Shown here piece after piece: positions 227-8,128 of a stretch of 9,493 bases of DNA. Position numbers and translations under genes: made by a program. The notes beneath the pieces were generated by a model, which did not search any database, was not told where the DNA came from, and saw only the letters and a list, made by a program, of their open reading frames with translations. Source of the DNA: Candidatus Martarchaeota archaeon. Lineage in GTDB: Archaea; Micrarchaeota; Micrarchaeia; Micrarchaeales; Micrarchaeaceae. The stretch is from assembly GCA_023474385.1 (NCBI GenBank), contig JAMCYB010000030.1:1-9493 (forward strand). Reading direction: 5' to 3'. Position 1 is the stretch's first letter, and each line of letters starts with the position of its first letter.

Positions 227-883
227 CTACTTCTTCCTCAATACCGCAAACATATGCAGGTCGTCAAAAGGCTCTAGCTTTACTTTCTCCACCACTTCGA
301 ATATAGGCGATACGCTCCTTAGGGCCTCATCGAAGACCTTTTCCGGGTTCTTCGATATGTCTATGCTCTGCGACTTTATTATGAAGTATGCATAGCCGCC
401 TGGCTTGAGCATATCGCTGTTCTTGTTCAGTATCGCCGCCTGGTCCCTGGCGGACACGTCCTGGTATATTATATCGCATGCGCCTACGCTCTTGCTGTAT
501 CTCTCGGTGTTGTTAGCATCTGCAAGTATGGGAAACATGTTCTTCCTGCGCTCGCATACCTTTATCAGGTCGCGCATGTTGCGCTCTGACAGCTCCACGC
601 AGAACACCTGCCCTTGTGAGGCTATGTCGCTTACATGGCTGGATGTTGTGCCTGTTGCGGCGCCTAGATAGAGCACACTTGAGCCCTTCGATAGCTTGAA
701 GCCCTTGAGGCCGTTGATTATGGCTGCGGCAAGCTTGCTCCGGTACGGATTCCACAACCTGTACTCCTTGCCATCATACGGCACTAGGACCTCTCCGTAC
801 ACCCTGTGGCCAGGATCCAGGTTCTCTGTCGCTAGCTTGCCGTCTATTGAGTACACTCCTTCGAAGAGCCTTTTCACTTCCAT
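227..883 (-). CDS. flpA: Fibrillarin, rRNA/tRNA 2'-O-methyltransferase
   Basis: The 218-residue protein matches archaeal fibrillarin, the SAM-dependent enzyme of box C/D ribonucleoproteins that methylates ribose 2'-OH groups on rRNA (and tRNA) at sites chosen by guide RNAs. The SAM-binding motif VLYLGAATGTT is at residues 70-80, an acidic strand end (VELS) at 96-99, and the family motifs YQDVS and FIIKSQSID at 140-144 and 157-165. The family's K-D-K-H active site appears complete as K50 (in NPYRSKLA), D142, K160 and H210 (DDLHMF). Length is normal for archaea (about 210-230). It lies 27 bases after eL21 with no good promoter between them, so the two are probably cotranscribed. Its usual archaeal neighbour, the Nop5/Nop56 scaffold gene, is not next to it here. 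Confidence 0.97.
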   Translation of the reverse strand: MEVKRLFEGVYSIDGKLATENLDPGHRVYGEVLVPYDGKEYRLWNPYRSKLAAAIINGLKGFKLSKGSSVLYLGAATGTTSSHVSDIASQGQVFCVELSERNMRDLIKVCERRKNMFPILADANNTERYSKSVGACDIIYQDVSARDQAAILNKNSDMLKPGGYAYFIIKSQSIDISKNPEKVFDEALRSVSPIFEVVEKVKLEPFDDLHMFAVLRKK

Positions 884-910: not shown

Positions 911-1198
911 TCACGAGCTGACCTTCTCCAGGTGCTTGGCGCTCACGATAAGCTGCTTGTGCGCTTTTATGTCCTTCACGTCGACTATGTATGCGCCGCC
1001 GCGGGCCCCGAGTATGGTGCCGACCTTGCCCTTGAAGCGTGGGTGCGGTATGTCCCGGTTGTTGCCCTTAGGCACTATTGCTACCCTGTCGCCTATGTTG
1101 AACGCCTTTATTACGTCCCTTATTGCAAGCTGGGAAGGCTTATGGTGCCTGGCGAGGTTGCGCGACCTTCCGCTCAATAATCCATTTGATTTCTTCAT
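911..1198 (-). CDS. rpl21e: Large-subunit ribosomal protein eL21 (L21e)
   Basis: This 95-residue basic protein matches the archaeal/eukaryotic eL21 family of the large ribosomal subunit. The N-terminus is rich in Arg/Lys (SGRSRNLARHHKPS). It is followed by the small beta-barrel core, with FNIGDRVAIVPKG near residues 34-46, the signature HPRFKGKVGTILGARGGAYIV around 52-72, and a C-terminal segment ending in LIVSAKHL. Length is typical. The ATG at 1198 is the first in frame after the predicted promoter at 1236-1252. The gene is divergent from the TBP gene and leads a likely two-gene unit with fibrillarin, which couples a ribosomal protein to the rRNA-modifying enzyme. Confidence 0.95.
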   Translation of the reverse strand: MKKSNGLLSGRSRNLARHHKPSQLAIRDVIKAFNIGDRVAIVPKGNNRDIPHPRFKGKVGTILGARGGAYIVDVKDIKAHKQLIVSAKHLEKVSS

Positions 1199-1235
1199 AT
1201 AATCACAGAAGAGGTTTTGTCAAGGGAGTATTGCA

Positions 1236-1277
1236 CATATAACTATTTATACTTTATTAGGCATTATCAATCAGGTG
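1236..1277. promoter_or_regulatory. Compact divergent promoter for eL21-fibrillarin and TBP
   Basis: The 86-base gap between the two start codons holds one main TATA element, CTATTTATAC (1243-1252) on plus, which reads GTATAAATAG on minus, so it can be used in either direction. For the plus gene the predicted start near 1274 gives an 11-base leader, and AGGTG at 1273-1277 is a plausible ribosome binding site 7 bases before the ATG. For the minus gene the same box, or the neighbouring AGTTATATG, places the start 14-25 bases before the ATG at 1198. Direction-specific BRE elements were not clearly resolved. Confidence 0.6.
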
Positions 1278-1284
1278 TAATCCC

Positions 1285-1644
1285 ATGGAAAGCTCCAAAC
1301 CAGTACAATCATCACATTCGAAGTATCTGCATGTCAAGCTCAAGCCAACCTATGAGGTAGTCAATATAGTAGCGAGCGCAGATTTGAACATAGAGCTGGA
1401 CCTTTACGGGCTGGCCAAGCTGTCGCGCGACGTGGACTATGAGCCGGAGCAGTTCCCAGGGGCGATATTCAAGGTGTATGACCCAAAGGCGGCACTTTTG
1501 CTATTCAACAGCGGGAAGATAATATGCACTGGCGCAAAGACGCCCGAGGACGTGAAGAAGGCAGTAAACCATGCTGTGATGCTCGTCAAGAAGTACATGT
1601 CAATGTACAAGGGCGCAAGCGCGCCAAAGACCAAGGCGAAATGA
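1285..1644 (+). CDS. tbp: TATA-binding protein domain, single repeat
   Basis: The 119-residue product contains one clear TBP repeat (residues about 24-104): VVNIVASADLNIELDL, then YEPEQFPGAIFKVYDPKAALLLF, then NSGKIICTGAK and a closing helix. It is closest in feel to the first TBP repeat. Archaeal TBP normally has two such repeats in about 180-190 residues and forms a saddle that bends the TATA box. Here the second repeat is absent. A lysine-rich tail (ASAPKTKAK) and a stop codon follow directly, and I find no second-repeat remnant in any frame before 2009. The pair of phenylalanines that intercalate DNA is kept (F57 in EQFPG, F74 in LLFNSG). To make a full saddle the protein would have to dimerise, which is inference. 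It could be the sole TBP or an accessory paralogue. Start ATG 1285 has AGGTG upstream. Confidence 0.9.
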   Translation: MESSKPVQSSHSKYLHVKLKPTYEVVNIVASADLNIELDLYGLAKLSRDVDYEPEQFPGAIFKVYDPKAALLLFNSGKIICTGAKTPEDVKKAVNHAVMLVKKYMSMYKGASAPKTKAK

Positions 1645-1805: not shown

Positions 1806-1950
1806 ACCAATTTAACCGCAGGTCTGATTGCCCCATAGGCGGAAGAGCCATTGGAGCATTTTCCCTTTATGGCACGGTTTACTATTAAGTGTAGTTATTG
1901 GCATGGTTTGGCGCATTGGAAGACGTAATACAAACGAGTGATAAGCATGC

Positions 1951-1975
1951 AAAAACGCGGCCAAAAAGGCCGCGC
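1951..1975 (-). terminator. Hairpin plus T-run terminator of two-gene unit
   Basis: On the minus strand a perfect 7-bp GC stem (1974-1968 with 1962-1956) encloses a T5 loop and is followed at once by a T5 run (1955-1951). It lies about 35 bases after the stop codon of the RAM-like gene. The shape is that of an intrinsic terminator. A second short T5 run at 1998-1994 lies between it and the stop. Confidence 0.6.
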
Positions 1976-1992
1976 ATAAGGTTTGAGGTTTT
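1956..1992 (-). repeat. Hairpin/16-mer element, copy A
   Basis: The GC-rich hairpin (1956-1974), a two-base gap, and the 16-mer TAAGGTTTGAGGTTTT (1977-1992, plus strand) form a unit. It recurs at 2569-2607 with a different stem sequence, the same two-base gap and 14 of 16 bases of the 16-mer. Read on minus, the 16-mer comes first and the hairpin second, directly after a stop codon. Confidence 0.6.
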
Positions 1993-2009
1993 CAAAAAGA
2001 CAGCATAAC

Positions 2010-2345
2010 CTATTTCCTGTATTTGTAATAGCTGGTTATCTCTCCATATTTGGCATCTATCTTGTTGTGTATATATCCAAATACGTCTTTCGGCTCCTTT
2101 CCGCCCTTGAACCTCGTCTTGACTATGAAACCGTAATCCCCATCAGTAACGTAAACCTCCTCTACATCGTCGAAGCTTATAAGCTTCTCGGCGACTGTGT
2201 CAGGGTCTGCATTCTCTTTGGGGTTCACAAGGTAGAACTTGTAGAATCTCTTTCCGTCGCGCTTTATGCTGTACTGCTGCTCCTTCTTTGCGAAGAGCGT
2301 TTTAGCCGCACTTTTGGAACTCGAATTACCGTTTCCCACCACCAT
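2010..2345 (-). CDS. Small RAM/Lrp-ligand-domain-like protein
   Basis: This 111-residue protein has a polar, probably disordered N-terminus (about 25 residues, Ser/Lys-rich). A compact alpha/beta part follows: a strand (KRFYKFYLVNP), a helix with DPDTVAEKLISF, then VEEVYVTDGDYGFIVKTRF and a helix with VFGYIHNKID. The order, and the GDYGFIVKTRF strand especially, resembles the RAM (AsnC/Lrp ligand-binding) fold, in which 'tGdYDlllkv' is characteristic. There is no helix-turn-helix, so it would be a stand-alone RAM-like protein able to oligomerise or sense a small ligand. It begins 4 bases after its upstream neighbour's stop, with GTGAT just upstream as a likely ribosome binding site, so the two are one operon. 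A terminator follows. Confidence 0.65.
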   Translation of the reverse strand: MVVGNGNSSSKSAAKTLFAKKEQQYSIKRDGKRFYKFYLVNPKENADPDTVAEKLISFDDVEEVYVTDGDYGFIVKTRFKGGKEPKDVFGYIHNKIDAKYGEITSYYKYRK

Positions 2346-2349
2346 GAAA

Positions 2350-2529
2350 TCACTTTTTATTATAATTGAGAAGATCTGACATAGTTATTGTCTTTTTCGT
2401 GCCGTTGAGCGCTTCCGGAGATTCGTCATACTCTATATGCCATGAGTTCTCGCCATCCTTTACAACTCTGACAGGCCTCTTGTCATCATCAAGCACGTGC
2501 TCTTTATCCGCTCTATGTATTATTCCCAT
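2350..2529 (-). CDS. Small acidic hypothetical protein
   Basis: The frame gives 59 residues from the ATG at 2529. A GTG three codons upstream (2538) would add MVT. I prefer the ATG because a GTGG lies just before it. The protein is charged and soluble, with a run of DDDKRP, a strand-like VRVVKDGENSWHIEYDE and a C-terminal helix, and has no cysteines or membrane segment. I do not recognise it. It is translated just ahead of the RAM-like gene in the same transcript (4-base gap), which suggests linked function. A weak TATA (CTTTATGA, about 2557-2563) could give a leaderless message from the GTG. Confidence 0.55.
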   Translation of the reverse strand: MGIIHRADKEHVLDDDKRPVRVVKDGENSWHIEYDESPEALNGTKKTITMSDLLNYNKK

Positions 2530-2564
2530 GGTTACCACTGCAGTTTATTGTTGAAATCATAAAG

Positions 2565-2738
2565 AGGATGCGCACCGATGCGGTGCGCACCTAAGGTTTG
2601 GGGTTTGTAAGAAAACCAGCTTGAATCTGGGTGTGGGAAAGGAGAAGCGCAAAACGGGTTTGCCATAAAACAATAACCATATGGCACACATACTTCATGG
2701 TCAATCTCTTGAACCATTGCCTACCCACCCACTTAACA
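2565..2738 (-). ncRNA. Candidate structured RNA (or small ORF)
   Basis: A strong minus-strand TATA at 2757-2768 predicts a start near 2738. Downstream, three helices can form. UGGGUGGG (2731-2724) pairs with CCaCACCCA (2636-2628) with one bulge. An 8-bp stem with one bulge is capped by a GAGA (GNRA) tetraloop (2717-2697). UGCCAU/AUGGCA (2686-2681 with 2666-2661) makes a third, so the first helix would close a three-way junction. The segment ends with the 16-mer and a perfect 9-bp hairpin (2607-2569). An ORF of 61 codons (2717-2532) overlaps it, but its product runs through the hairpin and shows no recognisable pattern. RNA is favoured, weakly. Confidence 0.38.
2569..2607 (-). repeat. Hairpin/16-mer element, copy B
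   Basis: A perfect 9-bp stem (TGCGCACCG 2569-2577, loop ATG, CGGTGCGCA 2581-2589) is followed after two bases by TAAGGTTTGGGGTTTG (2592-2607). It is the same composite as at 1956-1992 with an unrelated stem sequence, so the architecture is conserved rather than copied whole. It lies 40 bases upstream of the start of the 59-residue gene and at the end of the candidate RNA. Confidence 0.6.
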
Positions 2739-2756
2739 AAGAATATTATGAAGAAG

Positions 2757-2768
2757 CTTTTATATATA
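2757..2768 (-). promoter_or_regulatory. Minus-strand TATA box
   Basis: Read on minus this is TATATATAAAAG, close to the archaeal box A. Centred near 2763, it predicts a start near 2738 and would drive the candidate RNA and possibly the two small genes beyond it. Confidence 0.5.
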
Positions 2769-2849
2769 GGTATATGGAAATATTTTGTGTTAACCTAATC
2801 ATAGTGACGAAATTCTTTTATAAAAAATAGTTTTAGACCAGTAAAGTTA

Positions 2850-2877
2850 TATACTATTATCATTTTACGATAGTATA
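2850..2877. promoter_or_regulatory. Inverted repeat, candidate operator
   Basis: TATACTAT (2850-2857) and ATAGTATA (2870-2877) are perfect inverted halves with a 12-base spacer, so half-site centres are 20 bp apart, two helical turns. It sits about 65 bases upstream of the large regulator-like gene. A 16-bp AT palindrome overlaps its end (2877-2892). Geometry suits a dimeric HTH regulator, possibly the neighbour itself. AT-rich chance palindromes are common, so this is moderate evidence. Confidence 0.4.
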
Positions 2878-2904
2878 AATTATATATAATTTTGAAATTT
2901 AAAA

Positions 2905-2925
2905 TACGAAATACTTAAATATATA
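2905..2925 (+). promoter_or_regulatory. BRE plus TATA for leaderless regulator-like gene
   Basis: CGAAATAC (about 2907-2914) resembles a BRE and is followed by TTAAATATATA (2915-2925). The TATA centre near 2919 predicts a start at about 2945, one base before the ATG at 2946, so the message should be leaderless. No Shine-Dalgarno sequence is present, in agreement. Confidence 0.6.
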
Positions 2926-2945
2926 CATATAACTAAATTCTAATT

Positions 2946-4313
2946 ATGGAAGAATTGCCAAGAGCCGTCTCTAATAAAATAAAGGATTTAAAAAATAAAC
3001 ATAGGCACCACATAGAAGTACATAGAAAGGGCAATTATTTCTATCTATTTGAAACCACGTCCGAATGGGTGCCTGAGACCATGTCACGGAAGAAATTATC
3101 TTTGTATATAGGTAAACTATCTAAAAGCGCTAAGTTCATACCCCCTTTAAGGAAGAGGCCTTCAACCGAGGGGATTAATACATTAGACGAATATATAAAC
3201 AGAGTACATAAAGCAGATGCCTTAGAAGAAAAGGAATTGATAAAGTCAGAATACGAGGTACCAATACTTAAGGAACTCAGCACAAATCCGAGAGAAGGCG
3301 CACAACAAATAAGCAAGAAGCTAGGGTTAAATTATTCTACAACCTACTATTGGATAAAGAGGCTAGAGGAGAAATATGGTATACGCTATACTATAGAACA
3401 CGTGTTCCTTAACAAGTTCGGCTTTTTCAGATTTTTTGCCGTAGCAAAGTTTAGTGATAAGCGGCCAGATTCAGAAGCTTTGAAGAGAGTTCTGGAGGAT
3501 AACAAGTACATACAGCTGGCGTTCTTGTCTAGGGGTGCTTACGATTTGTTCATATTCTTCCTTGCTTCAGATCCGGTATCTGCAGAAAACCTAATATACG
3601 ATTTGCGATCAAACCCTGTGCTTGCCGAATGCCCTGCATTTTGGTATTCGAGCTATTTTACCCAAGGGATAGGGTATATACCGCTAAGGGATGAATTCTT
3701 CGATGTACTGGAAGAGCGGGTCTGGCGCAGGACCAAGGAGCATCCACGCAGGTCAATAGGGCAGATCTTCCTCCGGGAATTTGCAACTTTAAAGGAGCTT
3801 AATCATAATGGCCTAATAGAATTCTCGGAGATAGACAGAAAATATGGCCTTAAGAAAGGCTCTGCGCAGTATACATACCATAAACTGCTCGAAGACGAGA
3901 TGATATTCAGAGTGACAATTACGATGGATAAACCACCAATAAAGGATACTGCAGTAATAGTGATAAATCAGATAGATGTTGGTAAATTTAATAAAAAACG
4001 GACGGAGTGGCTAAAAGATGTAATAGAAGAAAGCAACGAAGTACCACTCAACAAATATATATTCGTTGGAGATATCGGTTCGCCTTATGGCATAATACAT
4101 ATATCACCCGTATATAAAGACGGCGAAGTAGAAAAAGTCGAGGCAGATATACTTAAAATTACTAGTGGCATAAGAGTAGAAACATCAATAATATCTAAGA
4201 TATTGGTAGGCAAATTAGGCTATAGAAAAATAGACACTACGAAAACATGGGTATACAAGACGCTATATCAAGAACTAACAAAAGATGGCAAGAGCAATGC
4301 GGATATAGCTTAA
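2946..4313 (+). CDS. Transposase-type N-module fused to tandem Lrp-like units
   Basis: The 455-residue protein appears to have three parts. Residues about 21-58 (KGNYFYLFETTSEW then RKKLSLYIGKL) resemble the short module at the start of some IS-family transposases, typically 'YVYESTSYWDKEKK...RKxIGKID'. Residues 103-142 look like a winged HTH (ISKKLGLNYSTTYYWIKRLEE). An RAM-like alpha/beta segment follows (157-225), containing RGAYDLFIFFLA. A second, more diverged pair may follow: HTH at about 268-325 (IDRKYGLKKGSAQYTYHKLLED) and RAM-like at 333-415. No transposase catalytic residues are seen. Lrp-type proteins are usually about 150 residues with one HTH and one RAM, so this is a large fusion. 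Likely a DNA-binding regulator; ligand and targets unknown. Its codons favour A/T far more than the helicase gene, hinting at transfer or accessory status. Confidence 0.75.
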   Translation: MEELPRAVSNKIKDLKNKHRHHIEVHRKGNYFYLFETTSEWVPETMSRKKLSLYIGKLSKSAKFIPPLRKRPSTEGINTLDEYINRVHKADALEEKELIKSEYEVPILKELSTNPREGAQQISKKLGLNYSTTYYWIKRLEEKYGIRYTIEHVFLNKFGFFRFFAVAKFSDKRPDSEALKRVLEDNKYIQLAFLSRGAYDLFIFFLASDPVSAENLIYDLRSNPVLAECPAFWYSSYFTQGIGYIPLRDEFFDVLEERVWRRTKEHPRRSIGQIFLREFATLKELNHNGLIEFSEIDRKYGLKKGSAQYTYHKLLEDEMIFRVTITMDKPPIKDTAVIVINQIDVGKFNKKRTEWLKDVIEESNEVPLNKYIFVGDIGSPYGIIHISPVYKDGEVEKVEADILKITSGIRVETSIISKILVGKLGYRKIDTTKTWVYKTLYQELTKDGKSNADIA

Positions 4314-4330
4314 TCATTTATTCTGATTTT

Positions 4331-4392
4331 TATGTTCCTTGTCCTCCCATATATTTCACCTTATGTTCCTGCTCCTCCCATATATTTCACCT
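4331..4392 (+). repeat. 31-bp tandem repeat, two copies
   Basis: Two abutting 31-base units (4331-4361 and 4362-4392) are identical at 29 positions. They differ only at bases 10-11 of the unit (TG against GC). Each ends with CCCATATATTTCACCT, and a relaxed third occurrence of that end, CCCATATGTTTCACCT, lies at 4628-4643. On the minus strand each unit begins AGGTGAAATATATGGGAGG, which contains two Shine-Dalgarno-like strings. Confidence 0.85.
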
Positions 4393-4453
4393 GCTTCTGC
4401 ATCTCTGGAAGGATTTAAATACCTTTCTTTGCGGATTTTGGATAATAAGTAAC
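4377..4453 (+). repeat. 77-bp direct repeat, copy 1
   Basis: Starting inside the second tandem unit, this segment matches 4628-4703 at roughly four of five positions with a single-base gap. The longest identical blocks are CATCTCTGGAAGGA and TTTGGATAATA. This copy carries a good TATA-like core (ATTTAAATA, 4413-4421) that the other copy has lost or altered. Confidence 0.8.
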
Positions 4454-4484
4454 ACCAGTATTCGACAACAACTATTCGAGCCAG

Positions 4485-4574
4485 ATGCGCATACTCAATG
4501 AGTATTACAAGGAAGCGATGCCTAGAAAGATAGATTATAGAATAACAGCTAACATAAAAGAAGAAGCGGAATAA
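4485..4574 (+). CDS. Micro-ORF or gene remnant, 29 codons
   Basis: An ATG at 4485 opens a 29-residue frame (MRILNEYYKEAMPRKIDY then RITANIKEEAE). The same frame is open upstream to 4449 without a start, adding VTPVFDNNYSSQ. The composition (charged, helix-forming, few rare residues) looks protein-like. It lies between the two direct-repeat copies, about 40 bases after the start predicted from the TATA at 4413-4421. It may be a small protein, or the tail of a deleted gene. No family recognised and no clear ribosome binding site. Confidence 0.25.
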   Translation: MRILNEYYKEAMPRKIDYRITANIKEEAE

Positions 4575-4627
4575 AACCTAATATTCAGCCGCTGTTTCCG
4601 CGACCTCCCTTATCGTCTTCGTCTGGA

Positions 4628-4703
4628 CCCATATGTTTCACCTGTGTGTGCATCTCTGGAAGGAATTAGATATTTTCTTTATGGGCTTTGGATAATAGGT
4701 AAC
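4628..4703 (+). repeat. 77-bp direct repeat, copy 2
   Basis: This is the 76-base partner of 4377-4453, with one base missing after the TATA-like region and mostly transition differences. Read on minus, both copies keep a CAG-GTG-AAA-xAT-ATG-GG string preceded by CCTTCCAGAGATG. Confidence 0.8.
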
Positions 4704-4772
4704 TGAAAAACCAGGCACATGAATAACAGCCCGATGCCATGAATATTCTAACCGGAACGCGGTTTAAACAAA

Positions 4773-5992: not shown

Positions 5993-8128
5993 ATGGATGT
6001 GCGCCAGATAAAGGGCATCGTTCCTTATGAAATGGTAGAATCGCTGGAGAAACGCGGTCTCGAGAAGTTCACGCCGCCCCAGGAGGCGGCGATAAGCTCG
6101 GGATTATTGGAGGGGAACAGCATTGTTGTTGCATCGCCGACAGCCAGCGGAAAGACGCTCGTAGCAGAGCTGGCGGCAGCATACAGCATAATAGCGAAGG
6201 GCAAGAAGGCAGTGTATATAGCACCCATGAGGGCTTTGGTGGAAGAGAAGTACAGCGAATTCAAGGCTGCATATCCCTACATAAAGAGCGTTATGTCTAT
6301 AGGCGACATGGATTCGAATGATCCATGGCTATCCAATTACAGCATGATATTCGTATCGACAGAGAAATTCGACAGCCTCATAAGGCACGGGATAGACTGG
6401 CTTCCCAGTGTTGGGTGCATTGTGTTTGACGAGGTCCACATGCTCGACGACCCTTCGAGGGGCGCGACGCTTGAGCTGCTGATGACCAAGCTCAAGGACA
6501 TAACTGACGCACAGATGATTGCGCTGAGCGCGACAATAGGCAACGCTAACGAGATCGCTGAATGGATGGGCGCCAAGCTGGTCGAGAGCGATTACAGGCC
6601 CGTTAAGCTGAGGAAGGGAGTAGTGCTTGACAATAAGGTGTATTATAAGTTAGGCAGGGCGAAGGCAGAGGATGAAGGCAGTGCGGAGGAGCTGAAGGGA
6701 GGCGCGCAGCTGCAGGAGATACGGGTAGTAGAGGACACTCTGAGAAGGGGCAAGCAGGCTCTTGTATTCTATTCTTCAAGGAGGAACGCAGAGGCAGGGG
6801 CGGAAAGGATAGGCGCTGCAATAGGCCCGACGCTCACTGCAGACGACAAGATAAGGTTAAACGAACTCAGCGAAAGGGTGCTCGGCGTGCTGGAGAGCCC
6901 TACGCAGCAATGCATAAAGCTCGCCAGGGCGGTGAAGAATGGCGTAGCGTTCCATCATGCCGGCCTGCTCAACTCGCAGCGCGGCTACATAGAGCAGGCC
7001 TTCCGAGATAATATTATAAAGGCGGTATGCTCCACCACCACATTGGGCCTTGGCGTCAACCTTCCGGCGCACACAGTACTGGTCAAGGAGGTGCACAGGT
7101 ACGACGGGTTCGGGAGCTCGAAGATAGGCATAAACGAGGTCACGCAGCTCTTCGGCAGGGCAGGAAGGCCCAAATATGATACAGAGGGCAGGGCGCTGCT
7201 TCTGGCTACATCAAAGGAGCTCATGAAGAGGCTCTACAAGGAGTACATAGAGGGCGAGCTGGAGCCGGTGAGCTCCAGCCTCGGCATAGCGCCGATACTC
7301 AGGACACATATACTCGCTTTTATAGCTGAGGATTTCCTCAACTCCGTGGACAGCATAAACGCCTTCATGGCTAAGACCTTCTACGGCTTCCAGTACAGGG
7401 ACCTGTGGGAGATAAAGCAGAACGTAAGGAGCATACTCATGGAGCTCGGCGAGTGGGAATTCATAGAGGACAGGAACGGCGAGCTGGTCGCGACAAGGCT
7501 CGGTAGGAGGGTCAGCGAGCTCTATATAGACCCCCTTTCGGCTAAATGGATCGTCGATTCGCTCAAGAAGCAGCGCGATATCATAGGCAGCCTGTTCATG
7601 ATAACCAATACGCTCGAGATGAGGCCGTACGTCAAAGCGACCGAGGAGGGGCTTTCGAGATATGTGATGTACAGGAGCACCATGCCAAGCACCAGCATAT
7701 TCGACTCTGAAGGCAGCTTCGATTACGCAGTGTACGAGCCGGAGAGGGCCTTCACCACTGCGCTGATGCTATATGACTGGATGGACGAGGTGCACGAGAA
7801 GGAGCTCGTCGAGAAGTATTCCATAACGCCCGGTGCTTTATACGTCAAGCTCACCAATGCGGACTGGCTCGTGTATTCTTCTATAGAGCTGGCCAAGCTG
7901 GTGCATGTGCCTATACATGACCTGGTGAACGTAAACGTCAGGCTCAAATATGGGATAAAGGAGGAGCTGCTGAACCTTGTCAGGCTTGAGCAGATAGGAA
8001 GGGTGAGGGCGAGAGCGCTGTTCAACAACGGCATACACACAATCGAGGACATAAGGAACAGCCGCGAAAAGGTAGCCAGGGTTCTCGGAAAGGACATCGC
8101 GCAGAAGGTGTTCAGCCAGATAGACTGA
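5993..8128 (+). CDS. hel308: Hel308-type ATP-dependent DNA helicase
   Basis: The 711-residue protein is a superfamily 2 Ski2-like helicase of the Hel308 group, 3'-5' DNA helicases thought to unwind lagging strands at stalled forks. Motifs in order: Q-motif (FTPPQ, Q30), Walker A ASPTASGKT (47-55), motif Ia APMRAL (77-82), DEVH (146-149), SAT (179-181), GVAFHHAGL and TTTLGLGVNLPAH in the second RecA lobe, and motif VI QLFGRAGRPKYD (about 383-394). A winged-helix part follows, with the ATRLGRRVSELYIDP signature near residue 510. The C-terminal helix-hairpin-helix (VRLEQIGRVRARALFNNGI to the end) matches Hel308 domain V. Length is typical (about 690-720) and all ATPase motifs look intact. It is convergent with the eS8 unit, 37 bases apart. 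Confidence 0.95.
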   Translation: MDVRQIKGIVPYEMVESLEKRGLEKFTPPQEAAISSGLLEGNSIVVASPTASGKTLVAELAAAYSIIAKGKKAVYIAPMRALVEEKYSEFKAAYPYIKSVMSIGDMDSNDPWLSNYSMIFVSTEKFDSLIRHGIDWLPSVGCIVFDEVHMLDDPSRGATLELLMTKLKDITDAQMIALSATIGNANEIAEWMGAKLVESDYRPVKLRKGVVLDNKVYYKLGRAKAEDEGSAEELKGGAQLQEIRVVEDTLRRGKQALVFYSSRRNAEAGAERIGAAIGPTLTADDKIRLNELSERVLGVLESPTQQCIKLARAVKNGVAFHHAGLLNSQRGYIEQAFRDNIIKAVCSTTTLGLGVNLPAHTVLVKEVHRYDGFGSSKIGINEVTQLFGRAGRPKYDTEGRALLLATSKELMKRLYKEYIEGELEPVSSSLGIAPILRTHILAFIAEDFLNSVDSINAFMAKTFYGFQYRDLWEIKQNVRSILMELGEWEFIEDRNGELVATRLGRRVSELYIDPLSAKWIVDSLKKQRDIIGSLFMITNTLEMRPYVKATEEGLSRYVMYRSTMPSTSIFDSEGSFDYAVYEPERAFTTALMLYDWMDEVHEKELVEKYSITPGALYVKLTNADWLVYSSIELAKLVHVPIHDLVNVNVRLKYGIKEELLNLVRLEQIGRVRARALFNNGIHTIEDIRNSREKVARVLGKDIAQKVFSQID

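Follow-up and report, generated by a model that had tools for sequence, protein, structure and literature searches.

The window analysed here, the whole stretch of 9,493 nucleotides from contig JAMCYB010000030.1, carries a forward-strand open reading frame that runs from ATG to TGA and whose product contains exactly one TATA-binding protein (TBP) repeat (Table 1). PF00352 (TBP) matched this protein once, at residues 23 to 104 and profile positions 2 to 85 of 85, with 97.2 bits (E 5.1e-28) against a family cut-off of 22.9. Because only one stretch matched, where a canonical TBP carries two lobes in one chain, the product is a TBP-lobe protein rather than a canonical TBP, and we refer to it as a half-TBP of type A. 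In the spacer that separates the gene from its divergent eL21 neighbor, inspection by eye alone disclosed one AT-rich, TATA-like element near 1240-1258, which the two genes seemingly share. Directed searches of the fetched loci for the window's neighbor genes found fibrillarin in 12, a count that takes in the window itself and some places fetched twice.

Table 1. Positions of genes and features in the analysed window.
Feature	Position	Strand	Basis
Fibrillarin, following eL21 here and in close relatives	227..883	-	Pfam, 250.2 bits
Ribosomal protein eL21, head-to-head with the TBP gene	911..1198	-	Pfam Ribosomal_L21e, 54.8 bits
Spacer of 86 bp between the divergent eL21 and TBP genes	1199..1284	.	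Sequence
Single-repeat (half) TBP, type A, 119 aa	1285..1644	+	ORF, Pfam TBP and relatives
Codon N27, Asn of central strand S1	1363..1365	+	Invariant in 46-sequence alignment
Stirrup motif YEPEQFPG, residues 52-59	1438..1461	+	Invariant in 46-sequence alignment
Codon F74, presumed second intercalating Phe	1504..1506	+	Invariant in 46-sequence alignment
Segment of about 2.9 kb, unmatched in L002	1888-4763
AsnC-like ligand-binding ORF, inside 1888-4763	2010-2345	-	Match below Pfam cut-off
455-aa protein with MarR/Lrp-type HTH, inside 1888-4763	2946-4313
Direct repeats, inside 1888-4763	4330-4391 and 4377-4689
DEAD-box helicase with archaeal helicase domain 4	5993-8128

Downstream of the TBP gene, the flanks that match the ends of the 2.9-kb segment sit 27 bp apart in locus L002 and are separated by 790 bp in L001. 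This segment may represent an insertion or else a stretch that was lost.

An alignment of 46 single-repeat proteins, hand-chosen from protein-search matches and including the window query, revealed six invariant residues: N27, E53, E55, F57, F74, and T82. As in known TBP structures, N27 presumably occupies a DNA-contact position; we take F57 and F74 to be the intercalating Phe pair, and N27 and T82 the minor-groove Asn and Thr of the lobe. Mapped by motif, E53 and E55 likely correspond to the two Glu residues through which TFB grips the C-lobe of TBP in canonical complexes, as described in PMC7221094. Canonical archaeal TBPs (Methanocaldococcus, Sulfolobus, Pyrococcus; PDB: 2z8u, 1mp9, 1ais) share with the half-TBP the lobe fold, the Phe positions and a YEPEQFPG-type stirrup, but they have two distinct lobes per chain, whereas the half-TBP has one that resembles neither more. 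In the comparison with PDB TBPs, it matched the two M. jannaschii TBP lobes about equally (66.8 and 70.6 bits).

The original prediction held that the frame contains one complete TBP repeat, with F57, F74, and a clean stop, and that no second repeat or remnant follows within 365 bases. Both statements were borne out, the latter across the whole window: of 262 frames of at least 20 aa compared with a half-TBP profile, none scored better than E 3 apart from the half-TBP frame itself (E 8.9e-63). A sequencing or assembly error, named as what could remove the claim, is unlikely, as is a truncation, because near-identical genes lie on separate contigs, in L001 and L002 (98% and 97% protein identity; 91-92% and 89-91% DNA identity over the aligned parts), and the window gene and its L001 counterpart give a dN/dS of 0.023. 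Among 10 more distant pairs, three were saturated and seven gave 0.09-0.23. For half-TBPs at large, many separate assemblies and one complete genome rule out an artefact or contig chimera as their source.

To place the gene in its phylum, we searched the 295 genomes of the phylum of the complete genome NZ_CP060530 (Candidatus Micrarchaeum sp. A_DKE; G001), the Micrarchaeota. A PF00352 match at E 1e-5 was found in 272 and none in 23; these gaps are real and may reflect either incomplete bins or TBPs that have diverged further. When one half-TBP of another type, B, was used to search these 295 genomes again, 272 were matched once more, and all of the matches were parsed; type B was defined by 66% identity to this query, with three genomes assigned by hand at 58%. 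About 100 of the 272 encode B and another half as separate single-repeat genes, A being the window type: 98 have B plus one other half and 2 have B plus two others. A further 88 carry a single non-B half and 71 a single two-repeat gene; B is the only type in 6; two non-B halves occur in 3 genomes and three in 2; the last 2 are odd (G007, with a canonical TBP plus A and B; G094, truncated). The genome completeness values in this census are blank. Of the 71 two-repeat genes, 41 whole ones were read and 30 were assigned from the match table only. The 88 single-half genomes include three two-repeat genes cut by a contig edge (G105, G150, G241) and a fragment at a contig end (G254). A comparison by eye gave two PF00352 matches in G105 and G145, both among the 88, and three in G082 (A plus B); the second match of G145 was missed by the B query.

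Nearly every relative in genome_contigs, where 97 loci were confirmed and 80 kept, bears a Micrarchaeota title; the others are some 'Marsarchaeota' and Micrarchaeaceae, a single Mancarchaeum, and a single 'bacterium' (L078). All 80 kept loci encode a TBP repeat: 79 show one, and L080 shows two, the first of them truncated where the contig stops; at 11,423 bp, this contig is exactly as long as that of G105. Because L055 and L079 begin at a contig end, a first repeat may be missing there. On a single 1175-bp contig, the first half of protein P0029 matches type B and the second half the window's A, with the joint in the shared YEPEQFPG, making it either an assembly chimera or an A/B recombinant.

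The original prediction allowed that a full two-repeat TBP elsewhere in the genome could make the single lobe an accessory paralogue. We consider this extremely unlikely. The complete genome G001 has A at about 0.79 Mb, B at about 0.16 Mb, and nothing else above the family cut-off. The closest relative among the searched genomes, G002, likewise has A and a separate single-repeat B as its only matches over the cut-off, though at ~0.6 Mb it is perhaps incomplete. G033, listed at ~0.8 Mb, carries one half-TBP on a 771,545-bp contig, 640 kb of which yielded no further TBP at E 10 in frames of at least 40 aa. Since no canonical TBP is found on these complete or long contigs, the half is not accessory in the relatives G001 and G033. 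The search for a second TBP, made in relatives' genomes, thus came out in two ways: no canonical TBP in G001 or G033, but a separate second repeat, B, in G001 and G002. Genomes G010 and G012-G016 gave one PF00352 match each, even at E 0.1; in G030, A and B share one 814,439-bp contig. The long contigs of G033, G030, and G063 and the complete genome G001 give the census its strongest cases. Among the genes read, a canonical TBP appeared once, in G007 beside A and B, and is likely contamination (GC 0.41 vs 0.43). This case, the 30 unread two-repeat genes, and the position of the window's genome outside those searched are what an accessory role could draw on; against it also stand the two-repeat genes that were read, whose lobes are considered below.

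The head-to-head arrangement with eL21 recurs across the loci chosen for fetching with their flanks. Of the single-half loci, 24 of 26 show it (a set that includes the cut two-repeat genes G150 and G241), as do 7 of the 11 A loci but none of the 11 B loci. Among two-repeat loci the count is 41 of 43, and both misses, G094 and G105, are contig-end cuts. Where a genome has several non-B halves, 3 of 10 loci show the arrangement, and so do 72 of the 80 kept genome_contigs loci. From this shared arrangement, most half and two-repeat TBP genes are positional orthologues, and B, absent from the eL21 place, is a separate gene. Two genomes encode three single-repeat TBP genes each, G063 (L195-L197, all on a 1,178,830-bp contig) and G069 (L198, L199); in both, two of the three genes are nearly identical and without an adjoining eL21.

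The two-repeat TBPs of the phylum (e.g., P0006, G099) belong to the same lobe family as the half-TBP but carry two copies in one chain; the 41 of 43 loci above, all from the G genomes, include G099, and P0006 has no locus. All Micrarchaeota lobes, whether half, N or C, fell in one clade (UFBoot 98 in a 139-lobe tree, 95 in a 120-lobe tree). The smaller tree takes in the 62 lobes of 31 two-repeat proteins, and all 62 grouped inside this clade with the half-TBPs. The AU test rejected a canonical C-lobe origin of the second lobes (delta lnL 170, p about 2e-4) and likewise a single shared re-duplication (delta lnL 210); the constrained trees behind all AU tests were obtained by short searches. Lobes within one protein are 37-89% identical in Micrarchaeota two-repeat TBPs vs 38-58% in the canonical proteins scored, the ranges overlapping at the low end (G155, G169, G089, G138, G143; 37-49%).

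An RpoB' tree of 48 genomes picked by class, in which several inner nodes have UFBoot <80, requires at least four changes between one and two repeats, and two-repeat TBPs probably arose more than once. P0003, P0004, and P0006, placed near single-gene G033 and G015, look like further re-fusions in the lobe trees (UFBoot 76-100 in the 139-lobe tree; low support for P0003 and P0006 in the 120-lobe tree), as do P0013, P0018, and P0020 near G048 (UFBoot 99 and 80, respectively), and G130 looks like a further loss of a repeat (UFBoot 94, 120-lobe tree). The lobes could also have become alike through gene conversion rather than by repeated re-duplication. In the two-repeat genes of L170-L176, CTG is replaced by CVGC in the first lobe and by CAGA or CAGS in the second, as if asymmetry had re-evolved. 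Most of 49 genomes probably have a split RpoB gene, because their RpoB frames measure ~605-734 aa compared with 1097-1142 aa in G089, G155, and G169; in G051, the frame is broken in two.

Placing the single repeat among canonical first and second repeats, as the original prediction had proposed, gave the single Micrarchaeota clade and allowed both sides for it: the N-side placement had an AU p of 0.57, and constraining every Micrarchaeota lobe to the C side cost 2.8-2.9 lnL units (p 0.46-0.49). A-type lobes average 43% identity to canonical N-lobes and 44% to canonical C-lobes. On an N-vs-C profile built on 62 canonical proteins, Micrarchaeota groups had mean scores of 4.6 to 13.8, single lobes ranged from -37 to +46, and the window scored -2.2. 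Left-out canonical lobes scored +107 (N) and -115 (C), a contrast inflated by close relatives in the set, as the three PDB archaea score much nearer to zero (N-lobes +45, +2, -9; C-lobes -21, -35, -20). A nesting of the half among canonical N-lobes, suggested by the nearest-N node (UFBoot 100 in the 139-lobe tree, 74 in the 120-lobe tree), was unsupported by the AU tests and profiles. Type B joins the other Micrarchaeota lobes in the best trees (UFBoot 96 and 90 in the 139- and 120-lobe trees).

The resemblance to the presumed ancestor before the internal duplication therefore holds in form; as descent it fares less well, with the lobe assignable to neither N nor C and a return from two lobes to one likelier than a relic. 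Reversion is favored because other archaea, including named Aenigmarchaeota matches such as P0062, have two-lobed TBPs with distinct lobes. Alternatively, the Micrarchaeota never underwent the founding TBP duplication and keep a dimeric one-lobe TBP that predates it, their two-lobed genes being later, independent re-enactments. The Micrarchaeota lobes do fall between canonical N- and C-lobes, as expected of an outgroup to both, and we nevertheless regard this history as very unlikely.

To evaluate the fold, we modeled the half-TBP and the two-repeat P0006 with AF2, as single chains. The half model is one TBP lobe (mean pLDDT 80.1, with 90-95 for residues 41-100; pTM 0.64) and superimposes on a TBP lobe with a Foldseek rmsd of about 1.0 Å over 78 columns. 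Its strand S1 spans residues 28-33 only, and residues 21-30 have a pLDDT of 68. In the P0006 model (pLDDT 89.9, pTM 0.82), both S1 strands have 11 residues and the protein forms a TBP saddle, with a TM of 0.85 to S. acidocaldarius TBP (1mp9); this saddle may be guided by canonical TBPs, since 18 of the 33 alignment rows behind the model are such proteins. We read the short, uncertain S1 of the half as a strand edge that may be waiting for a partner.

Taken as a whole, the half-TBP is very probably a reduced, one-lobe form of the general TATA-binding protein of the organism, working as a two-subunit saddle, with dimerisation, DNA bending, TFB docking, and the choice between A:A and A:B as the parts that we infer. 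It is most likely the general TBP because it holds the same eL21 place as the two-repeat genes, whose lobes group with the half-TBPs. Two one-lobe chains would meet at strand S1 and rebuild a ten-stranded saddle, which would present two Phe pairs for the TATA kink and two YEPE stirrups. As either stirrup could dock TFB, polarity would have to come from TFB, the DNA flanks, and RNA polymerase, not from TBP itself. A symmetric TBP, if present, could let the element shared by eL21 and TBP fire in both directions. Genomes with a single gene, such as G033, would have to build the saddle as an A:A homodimer; the window's lineage keeps B as a second half-TBP, and A:A and/or A:B dimers would be expected there; several lineages encode two such lobes in one chain instead.

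The claim that a functional half would have to homodimerise is only partly supported for the window, because G002 carries B too: a two-subunit saddle is the natural mode, and P0006 is predicted to form one, but a heterodimer is about as likely, and we give A:B and A:A near-equal weight in the window's organism. The RpoB' tree has B in each half of the clade to which relatives of the window belong; the G015/G033 and G016/G010/G012 genomes of that clade yielded no B. From this distribution, B was probably lost in these lineages, where A's orthologue would work alone. The seven sampled genomes on the window's side with A and B (G001, G002, G003, G004, G017, G030, G057) were picked as such, and five one-half genomes may lie on the same side by their weaker PF00352 scores (G232, G253, G262, G266, G295).

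A split TBP, with A and B as obligate partners in the window's lineage, an A:B heterodimer as the saddle, and A insufficient by itself, falls only a little short of an even chance. It is consistent with the co-occurrence of A and B in about 100 of the 272 genomes and with the B sequences read, which retain the N, the Phe positions, and YEPEQFPG or YEPDQFPG; the six B-only genomes are no more than assembly gaps could yield, and the AU test does not reject a grouping of B with canonical C-lobes (19 lnL units worse, p 0.25). However, A's orthologue must act alone in the five clade members where B was not found, the nearby two-repeat proteins P0003, P0004, and P0006 have two A-like lobes rather than A plus B, and the best trees place B with the other Micrarchaeota lobes. 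An A:A homodimer as the general factor, with B as a regulator or promoter-selective partner, is a reading that we hold tentatively, at slightly less weight. B is missing where A's orthologue is retained, it was never at the eL21 place among the 11 fetched loci, and lineages lacking B can carry extra halves too (three each in G063 and G069), but the wide retention of B and the same DNA-contact motifs in the sequences read argue against this reading.

Of 25 genomes examined, 23 encode a TFB with two cyclin repeats in one frame, and none was found in G005 and G014; a TBP of like halves therefore meets a TFB of the usual make-up. In known complexes, TFB contacts DNA on both sides of TATA. An intact TFB with such contacts could allow a monomeric half to bind half a TATA element while TFB bridges the rest, which we judge improbable: the short S1 edge in the monomer model and the repeated two-lobed forms at the same locus both point, indirectly, to a two-lobe working unit.

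The 31 tRNA upstreams of G033 (L326-L357) share a wTWTAA-like element, mostly at -37 to -27 and above 8 shuffled controls; the 10 bases upstream of it hold no BRE-like signal in this one genome (≤0.15 bits per position). When 43 tRNA upstreams from different loci were pooled, no motif position stood out; upstream regions of G033 protein genes told little because the gene calls were crude, and G119 has only 4 tRNAs to offer.

One lobe per chain, as in the half-TBP, also characterizes bacterial single TBP-like domains, e.g., the RNase HIII N-domain, likened here by description (from the portions available of PMC7289017 and PMC7221094). Vaccinia VITF-3l, as far as the available text of PMC12917281 describes it, is another TBP fold with an altered lobe number; it is tripartite, gaining a lobe and pairing with a TFIIB homologue, where the half-TBP instead has one lobe per chain. 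The available accounts (PMC7221094, PMC7289017, PMC12917281) depict TBP itself as a two-lobed chain that is required in archaea and eukaryotes and was born by duplication and fusion of one lobe. The available parts of PMC8407392 and PMC8204110 mention DPANN TBP without a size.

The RNase HIII N-domain is part of an enzyme and not a promoter factor, the role proposed for the half-TBP. Among titles and passages of open-access papers on Micrarchaeota and DPANN TBP, we found no account of a one-lobe TBP in archaea. One-lobe TBPs in many genomes of one phylum, together with seemingly repeated two-lobed remakes, would open the duplication and fusion step of TBP to experiment, and with it the questions of whether a symmetric TBP is workable, how promoter direction is set without TBP asymmetry, and what is gained from fusion. 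Half-TBP genes are already partly annotated in public records, some single-repeat matches being labeled 'hypothetical protein' (NCBI) and others TFIID TATA-box-binding protein (JGI).
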